This document shows, piece by piece, positions 43,767-46,030 of a stretch of DNA of 64,000 nt. Every line of letters begins with the position of its first letter. Within the stretch, counting starts at the first letter, position 1. The notes under the pieces are model-generated. The model did no database searches and had not been told where the DNA came from. It worked only from the letters and a program-made list of their open reading frames with translations. The stretch covers positions 124,001 through 188,000 of the forward strand of contig JADNRZ010000012.1 in the NCBI GenBank assembly GCA_015501605.1, written 5' to 3'. This DNA comes from Panaeolus papilionaceus (Eukaryota; Basidiomycota; Agaricomycetes; Agaricales). The translations under genes were made by a program, and so were the position numbers.

Positions 43767-46030
43767 ATGGCTTTCGGTCGCTTCTCTCGTCTCTTGTGCG
43801 CTGTCACTGTTGCCGTTGTTCTTCAGGCCTCCAAGTCGCTGGGCTACGACAATTCCAGGTCGGACAACGTACGTTTTGTTGTTGGCTGGGCCTTTTTGTT
43901 TATTGAGCTAATTTATTTCACATTGCTTTAGGTGGTTGCGTGCGTACAATGTACTACAAGGGAGTCCTTCTCATGCTGACCTGGTTTATTCTTTTAGTTA
44001 CTGGGGTCAAAACTCCTATGGAGCTACTCACTCTGACCAAAGCGCCTGGCAACAGGCCCTGTCTGCTTATTGTCAGGTACATTTCCCCGTATTTTACTTC
44101 TAGTAACTATTGCTTACTAAACCGTTTGAAGGACGACAACATCAATGCAATCCCTCTCGCATTCCTCCACGTCTTCTTCTCTACGGGAGGTCTGCCAGAA
44201 ATCAACTTCTCTAGCGTAAGCAGTAGTCCTGGCCTCTTTCAACTATCTTCTTGGTACTGAACATTATCCCCAGACTTGCAGCAGCAACTCTGGCGTTTTC
44301 GGAGGTACTAATCTGGCCAACTGCCAGTTTATGGCTTCCGACATCAAGGCCTGCCAATCGCGCGGAAAGATTATCACCCTGTCTTTGGGTGGAGCGACTG
44401 CCGCAGGAGGCTTCTCCTCGGACTCCCAAGCCGAAGCGTTCGCAGACACGATCTGGAACTTGTTCCTTGGTGGAAGCAGCTCGACCAGGCCTTTCGGTGA
44501 TGCCGTTCTTGATGGGTAAGTTATGTCGACCGACACAGACTGCCCACTAAAATCCTACTCCTTCAGTGTTGATTTGGATCTCGAGGGTGGCAATGGCGCC
44601 TACTTCCCATCCTTCGTCAACAGGATTCGCTCTCATGCTAACGGAGCGAGCAAGAAGTGAGTTATAGTTGTCAACTTAAACGCTTGTGCTCATTGCATCC
44701 CTCAGATACTATGTCACCGCCGCTCCCCAATGCCCTTACCCCGATGCTTACGTTGGCTCTGTTCTCAACGCAGTTGGCTTCGATGCTGTCTATGTACAAG
44801 TAAGTGATGCTGTATCCGTCCTAGGATTCAACACTCAATCACCCCTCCACAGTGTAAGATAATACAATGACCACCCGCTTCGGTATATTGACCTTGCCTT
44901 TTCTCAAGTCTACAACAACTATTGCGGGTTAGTTACACGTTTCATAAATGTGGATTATTGTCCAACTAATGCATCGAACTAGTTTGAACAACTTCGGAAA
45001 CCCTAACGTAAGCACATTGTCTTGAAATTTACGTTCAGTACTACACGACGTATTGCTGATCTATTCACTGTGAAAACAGGCGTGGAACTTCGGAACCTGG
45101 TTCGTTTATGCATGCGTTTCTGTAATATGCGAAGCCAAACTAATCGTCATCTCACAGGGATAACTGGGCGAAGACTGTGTCACCAAACAAGAACGTCAAG
45201 ATTTACATCGGTGCCCCTGCTTCCCCCACTGCTGCAGGCTCTGGATACGTCGATGCCTCGACCTTGGGCAACATAGCCAGGCAAACAAAATCTCAATACT
45301 CCTCCTTCGGTGGTGTTATGCTCTGGGATGTGTCGCAGGCATACGGTAAATTTATTGGAAATCCTCTCTCGTCGATAACATGCTCATGACTATTAGGCAA
45401 CAACAGGTTCGACGCTGCCATCAAGAGCGCCATTGCCGGTGGCTCGTCTTCTCCTCCACCCTCTAGCACTGCTCAGCCAACCAATACTCCACCCGCGAGC
45501 ACCACACGCCCTCCAAGCGGTGGAAGCTGCTCAGGTGTCCCACAATGGGTCAGCAATGTCGCAGTAAGTCCATGCACTACACTTTTCAACCCCACTCCCT
45601 CACGACATTTATTTGCAGTACGTAGGCGGAAACCAAGTGGTATACAAGTAGGTTCCCTGCACATACCTTTGACCCGCCTTCTTAACGTGGTTTGTAGTGG
45701 ACATTTGTGGACTGCGTCCTGGTGGTCGCAAGCTGGTGAGTTTTATGACACACAATATTCCATGCAGACCCCTCACCAGTCACCGTTTTTCTACAGACGT
45801 TCCTGGAGGTAAATTTCTCCATTACTTATGACCTGGACGCACTAAGAACGTTAACACCAGGACTTGCTGGTGTCTGGGTCGATAACGGCGCTTGCTCTGG
45901 CCGATTTGCTACACCTACTGCTGATGTCAAGACCCCATCCGCCACTCCAATTGTTCACCACACTCACGCAAACAGTGTGTATCAGCCAAGGATTACTCTT
46001 CGAGGTGTTACTAAAACTAGCTCTTCATAG
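43767..46030 (+). CDS. GH18 class III chitinase with C-terminal CBM5/12 and micro-exons
   Basis: This is a secreted, hevamine-type chitinase. After the signal peptide (LLCAVTVAVVLQASKSLG) come VVAYWGQNSYGATHSDQ, FLHVFFSTGG, GKIITLSLGGATAAGGFSS and the catalytic LDGVDLDLEGG (Glu codon 44583-44585). Next are YVTAAPQCPYPDAYVG and YVQFYNNYCG, then NAWNFGTWDNWAK and GGVMLWDVSQAYGNNRFD. A Ser/Pro/Thr linker leads to a CBM5/12 (SCSGVPQW, GHLWTASWWSQADVPGG, AGVWVDNGAC), and a tail of about 40 residues ends TKTSSS (stop 46028-46030). Keeping the family reading frame needs very small exons: 8 nt (43932-43939), 1 nt (44853), 25, 20 and 12 nt (45797-45808). Every one is bounded by GT-AG introns of ordinary length. 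Confidence 0.93.

Follow-up and report, generated by a model that had tools for sequence, protein, structure and literature searches.

The single nucleotide T at position 44853 of the window, the whole 64,000-nucleotide stretch of DNA that was analysed (contig C4:124001-188000 in the 50.85-Mb genome of Panaeolus papilionaceus), is very probably a constitutive one-nucleotide exon of a chitinase gene, predicted to be retained as the two introns that flank it likely leave in turn. The gene and two other very short exons of its model are located as follows.

43767–46104, forward strand: chitinase gene (GH18 catalytic domain and CBM5/12), 17 exons modelled plus an 18th
43932–43939, forward strand: exon 2, an 8-nt micro-exon (GTGGTTGC) of the splice model
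45797–45808, forward strand: exon 16, a 12-nt micro-exon of the splice model in the CBM5/12 part

With T taken as exon 8, the whole gene splices cleanly in the 17-exon model; exon 18 (46031-46104) and the last junction were placed by eye against P0001, a public protein of Panaeolus papilionaceus that is the public model of this gene. The modelled protein reaches 71.1 bits against PF00704 (cut-off 29.6) and 30.3 bits against CBM5/12 (cut-off 26.2), and its nearest sequence relatives are the endochitinase 2uy2, Endochitinase 33 and hevamine. Both DGVDLDLE and QFYNN are found in it, matching DxxDxDxE and QFYNN, which we take to be the motifs of GH18 class III chitinases. The domain and the two motifs thus identify the predicted product as a GH18 class III (hevamine-like) chitinase. 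In hevamine, the Tyr of the YNN stretch is catalytic. The 8-nt length of exon 2 recurs in a second copy of the gene on contig C67 and in a paralogue, gene B, and the 12-nt length of exon 16 likewise recurs in the C67 copy.

The junction that encodes QFYNN is composed of the following features, of which the last is an alternative to the two introns.

44706–44799, forward strand: exon 7, ending GTC TAT GTA CAA (VYVQ), from the sequence and the splice model
44800–44852, forward strand: intron 7, 53 nt, GTAAGT...CCACAG
44853, forward strand: exon 8 of the splice models, the predicted single nucleotide T, base 1 of the Phe codon TTC
44854–44908, forward strand: intron 8, 55 nt, GTAAGA...CTCAAG
44909–44927, forward strand: exon 9, 19 nt, TC TAC AAC AAC TAT TGC GG (rest of F, YNNYCG)
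44804–44908, forward strand: alternative single intron from the splice-model list, 105 nt, donor GTGATG, reading YVQVIYNNYC

The letters AG-T-GT at 44851-44855 leave exactly one base between intron 7 and intron 8, and the coordinates, lengths and boundary letters that an earlier, sequence-only reading had given for 44800-44908 were exact on re-reading. Its description of both introns as canonical and normal in size also holds, as both are GT-AG and their 53 and 55 nt lie within the range of 47-72 nt (median 55) found for 42 introns in the models of three genes from this genome, introns 7 and 8 themselves included. Each is thus of viable, ordinary length for this genome. All 42 introns end in AG, and their donors are 41 GT and one GC, which is the rule by which the introns were placed.

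The same arrangement is present at a second locus.

L003:4406-6629 (G000:C67): C67 copy of the chitinase gene

This paralogue is 82% identical to the window copy over a 240-nt probe, and all 16 introns of the window gene are present in it, as far as modelled. Its one-base exon, a T, lies at L003:5496 (G000:C67:35495) and is flanked by a 52-nt and a 60-nt intron, and CAG-T-GTAAG is common to the two copies, so that the same base and the same sites are found at the DNA level in a homologous gene. The exons are identical at 814 of 1031 nt (79%), as computed over the 15 equal-length exons among the first 16, exon 13 being left out because it differs in length between the copies. The 16 homologous intron pairs have identities of 0.38-0.57 with a mean of 0.458 (intron 7 pair, 0.41; intron 8 pair, 0.40) against a mean of 0.455 (sd 0.065) for 120 non-homologous pairs, which indicates that the introns of the two copies stand at background. 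The longest interior word common to the 109- and 113-nt stretches is CAGTGTAAG, at offsets 44 and 43, and since a shared word of at least nine letters occurred anywhere in 18 of 500 shuffles, this match alone is modest. The retention of the same layout in so diverged a copy suggests that the one-nucleotide exon is in use and likely kept by selection. A sequencing error or a decayed gene is extremely unlikely, since two loci have the layout and the modelled part of each gene has a clean reading. The 120 homologues listed for the protein spliced from the C67 copy include no close public match to it; a public model of this copy may not exist, may be faulty or may have a length that the protein search did not admit.

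Models joining exon 7 to exon 9 by one or two GT-AG or GC-AG introns of at least 35 nt, with sites within fixed limits around the junction, were enumerated, which gave 40 models for the window copy and 90 for the C67 copy. Models that were free of stops and carried YNN[YF]C in frame numbered nine of the 40 and 11 of the 90, and YVQFYNN was obtained from only one model in each copy, both of which include T. The joining of CAA, T and TC TAC into YVQFYNNYC, as originally proposed, is unique among the 40 models of the window copy. Two one-intron models keep the frame in the window copy, 44804-44908 (YVQVIYNNYC) and 44852-44908, the latter of which reads through intron 7, and two keep it in the C67 copy, 5448-5556 (YVQVLYNNFC) and 5448-5529, both with the donor GCTACA. 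T is thus needed for both the frame and the conserved residue, whereas the one-intron models keep only the frame.

When T is skipped and the 109 nt of the window copy are taken as one intron, the reading becomes YVQSTTTIAV followed by a stop; the frame is broken, as had been claimed, with the stop after seven codons. The stop falls after 240 residues, at the same residue in both copies, and it rules out the 109-nt single intron as the coding form. A nested (twin) intron, or stwintron, was rejected as it had been in the sequence-only reading: both introns have complete ends, and T remains in the mRNA whichever of them is removed first. The T-containing junction in the predicted mRNA is CAATTCTAC, and the predicted forms at odds with the T exon are CAATCTAC, in which T is skipped, CAAGTCTAC and CAAGTAATCTAC.

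The residue at this site was compared across species on protein models, using 177 homologues obtained as the union of three protein searches with up to 120 listed matches each. The residue before YN is F in 149 of these listed homologues and V in two, while 23 are broken there and three are unanchored. F, the residue expected at this point in class III chitinases, is thus carried by 149 of the 151 listed homologues in which a single residue separates VQ from YN. F is also present in the two best-matching relatives of solved structure among those displayed and in all three bacterial relatives (genome_contigs), which are intron-free and served as length markers; a scan of viral_contigs found no relatives. 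The 28 listed homologues that depart from F are all named as Agaricales genera, where the lineages of Panaeolus, Pluteus, Crassisporium and Crucibulum were looked up and the remaining genera presumably belong to Agaricales.

The two carriers of V among the listed homologues are P0001, the model of the gene studied here, and Crucibulum laeve P0003. They would agree with a single 108-nt intron with a non-canonical end, which leaves GTC TAC and reads YVQVYNNYC as in P0001, and for which CAAGTCTAC is the matching cDNA form. V alone at the site is encoded by none of the nine GT/GC-AG models that keep the frame in the window copy, so V needs a GT-AA or TA-AG intron. Such a form is most improbable, because the intron lacks the AG end found in 42 of 42 modelled introns (which were placed by that rule) and V is confined to two of the 151 readable listed homologues. 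The V of P0001 is probably an artefact of the aligner or gene builder, in which a genomic base was substituted for an mRNA T that could not be placed; it could have arisen, we infer, from transcript alignments that left a single base unplaced.

The strength of the splice sites was expressed as percentiles relative to 36 other introns of these genes, used as the training set. In the window copy, the outer sites are the donor of intron 7, at the 100th percentile and above all 36, and the acceptor of intron 8, at the 69th, whereas the inner sites are the acceptor of intron 7, at the 17th percentile, and the donor of intron 8, at the 3rd, with T at −1. The corresponding percentiles in the C67 copy are 86 and 75 for the outer donor and acceptor, and 31 and 19 for the inner acceptor and donor; the values for gene B are 22 for the inner acceptor and 75 for the inner donor. 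The motif TTGAC lies near the end of intron 8. A strict YTNAY 8-40 nt from the end of intron 7 is absent in both copies, as it is in six of the 36 training introns.

These scores also bear on the 105-nt intron 44804-44908, which the sequence-only reading had overlooked; its single-T reading is supported, but its list of alternatives was incomplete. This intron is GT-AG, in frame and stop-free, placing V-I where F is expected, and its counterpart 5448-5556 lies at the same offset in the C67 copy, but with a GC donor whose GCTACA is far from the consensus and unlike GCAAGT, the sole modelled GC donor. The donor at 44804 scores 0.26, at the 3rd percentile of the 36, and lies four bases from the donor that beats all of them. 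YVQVIYNN is moreover one residue too long for a site that holds F in 149 of the 151 readable listed homologues, and P0001 does not use this intron, so that its use in place of the T exon is very unlikely.

The weak inner sites are the main point against the constitutive use of T. They leave room for T skipping, and on this basis T might often be skipped by removal of the 109 nt as one intron, the frameshifted mRNA being degraded, so that T inclusion would tune the enzyme level (unproductive splicing). In each copy, the percentiles of the outer sites are above those of the inner sites, and the stop after T skipping lies at the same residue in both; nevertheless, 109 nt exceeds every one of the 42 measured introns, and this alternative is considered improbable.

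The chance occurrence of the T-exon layout was estimated from 20,000 shuffles per stretch in which the ends were held and the interior dinucleotides kept. An AG-N-GT with any base as N and neither piece shorter than 47 nt occurred in 2.0% of the window shuffles and 4.7% of the C67 shuffles, and AG-N-GT with T as N in 0.9% and 2.3%, respectively. T together with the donor GTRAG arose in none of the 20,000 window shuffles and in seven of the 20,000 C67 shuffles.

Broken public models were examined, with mixed outcomes, by a frame test in which degenerate back-translations of the model tails were compared at three offsets with YNN.CG...W. Pluteus cervinus P0093, which reads YVQSTIIGADLRTSTTLM at the site, fits at offset 2 only (one of the three offsets), which suggests that the model joined Q directly to TC TAC with one base of the F codon missing. 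In P0042, LQQLVR fits at offset 1, and SLQQLVR, beginning one residue earlier, gives no fit, the Tyr codon being out of reach of the offsets 0-2 that were tried; P0034 fits at none of the three. Panaeolus cyanescens P0006 reads YVQCKQW..., as would be expected if a predictor had read through T-GTAAR after the first intron. A shared T exon in P. cyanescens and Pluteus is suggested through their protein models. The models P0017, P0053, P0132 and P0157 read C followed by D, E, K and K, respectively. In P0017, P0053, P0132, P0022 and P0100, YNN is reached with no preceding V, the residue that AG followed by TC TAC would give, so these Lyophyllaceae genes must differ, and several Lyophyllaceae models end in CARTAY, for which the T exon does not account. 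F is missing (YVQYNN or ...QYNN) from ten of the 23 broken listed models, mainly of Lyophyllaceae and relatives by name (P0010, P0011, P0016, P0021, P0030, P0101, P0130, P0144, P0147 and P0151). In these F-less models, TAC appears to follow the acceptor immediately, an arrangement that a T exon leaves unexplained, and a 3-nt exon in their genes is possible.

At least two further related genes, A and B, were found on contig C12 by a protein search of the same genome; gene B is a tandem paralogue adjoining gene A. Their layouts at the same motif are as follows.

L025:4542-4539 (G000:C12), minus strand: gene B, 4-nt exon TACA flanked by introns of 56 and 47 nt
L025 around 1578, minus strand: gene A, apparently one intron, which splits the Tyr codon that follows F in QFYNN, read by eye

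The junction of gene B, TAC G^TACA^G TTC, gives YVQFYNNPC, and the 4-nt-exon model is the one among 13 frame-keeping GT-AG models of this gene that yields YVQFYNN. Intron 1 of gene B is GC-AG, with the donor GCAAGT. The different layouts in the window and C67 copies, in gene B and in gene A indicate that introns crowd the motif at copy-specific positions.

The T exon could be retained by ordinary splicing. Two spliceosomes could not sit together at splice sites that are one base apart, and introns 7 and 8 would likely be removed sequentially by the ordinary spliceosome, each being recognised as its own short unit. After either removal, T would join a normal exon, and the order of removal would leave the product unchanged. 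Loss of T would shift the frame from the F codon onwards, with loss of the YNN stretch and a stop after seven wrong codons, so that selection would keep T.

The earlier statement that one-nucleotide exons are known from very few genes agrees with the nuclear examples found, which are plant APC11 (PMC4674806, PMC8831610), VPS55 (PMC8831610) and Fusarium CYP621A (PMC12940212); mitochondrial examples are placozoan cox1 and possibly a case in Ophiostoma. The exon of CYP621A, described by its authors as the first one-nucleotide exon in a fungal gene (Nelson and Syed 2026, PMC12940212), was inferred by comparison and is backed by SRA reads in two species. It resembles the chitinase exon in that a fungal nuclear gene carries one base between two introns at a conserved motif. 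However, CYP621A is an ascomycete P450 with the exon letter G (AGGGT) in a stretch of 139 nt in F. graminearum (PMC12940212), whereas the present gene is a basidiomycete GH18 chitinase with the letter T in a stretch of 109 nt, accompanied by a paralogue whose exon at this motif has 4 nt, and its one-base exon is predicted. In Arabidopsis APC11, the single base is likewise critical for the frame and was missed by annotation (Guo and Liu 2015, PMC4674806), although this plant exon is an A in a 422-nt stretch and was proven by cDNA and reporter constructs. The 1-nt microexons of land-plant VPS55 and APC11 (PMC8831610) are long conserved, as is proposed here, and that of VPS55 occurs in one paralogue clade; read mapping fails on them unless the exon is supplied, and they are supported by RNA-seq and RT-PCR. 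Fungal stwintrons are similar in that two introns at one place leave in consecutive reactions, but there one intron interrupts the splice signal of the other, whereas here the base between the introns is kept. No one-nucleotide exon in any basidiomycete was found in the open-licence literature, and the T exon of the mushroom chitinase is, as far as that literature was searched, the first such exon in basidiomycetes.

Pluteus cervinus was used as the outgroup to Agaricineae in a 2026 study, which dates the Galeropsidaceae (Panaeolus) to about 87 Myr (PMC12835877). If Pluteus shares the exon by descent, as its protein model suggests, the exon would predate the split between Agaricineae and Pluteineae. 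A broader and rather unlikely proposal is that the one-base exon is ancient in Agaricales, at least in Panaeolus and Pluteus, at an intron-prone spot where exon size is copy-specific (4 nt in gene B, as against 1 nt in the window and C67 copies), and that, given outer splice sites that surpass the inner sites in strength, T inclusion may switch between active chitinase and frameshifted, degraded mRNA.

One-base exons define how short an exon splicing can still accommodate, and the chitinase, if its T exon is true, would be the second fungal gene with such an exon after Fusarium CYP621A, and in mushrooms. With its conserved copy and the 4-nt cousin in one genome, it would provide a small natural set for studying how the spliceosome deals with splice sites separated by a single base. 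The T exon would also explain faulty public models at this motif in various Agaricales, including P0001.
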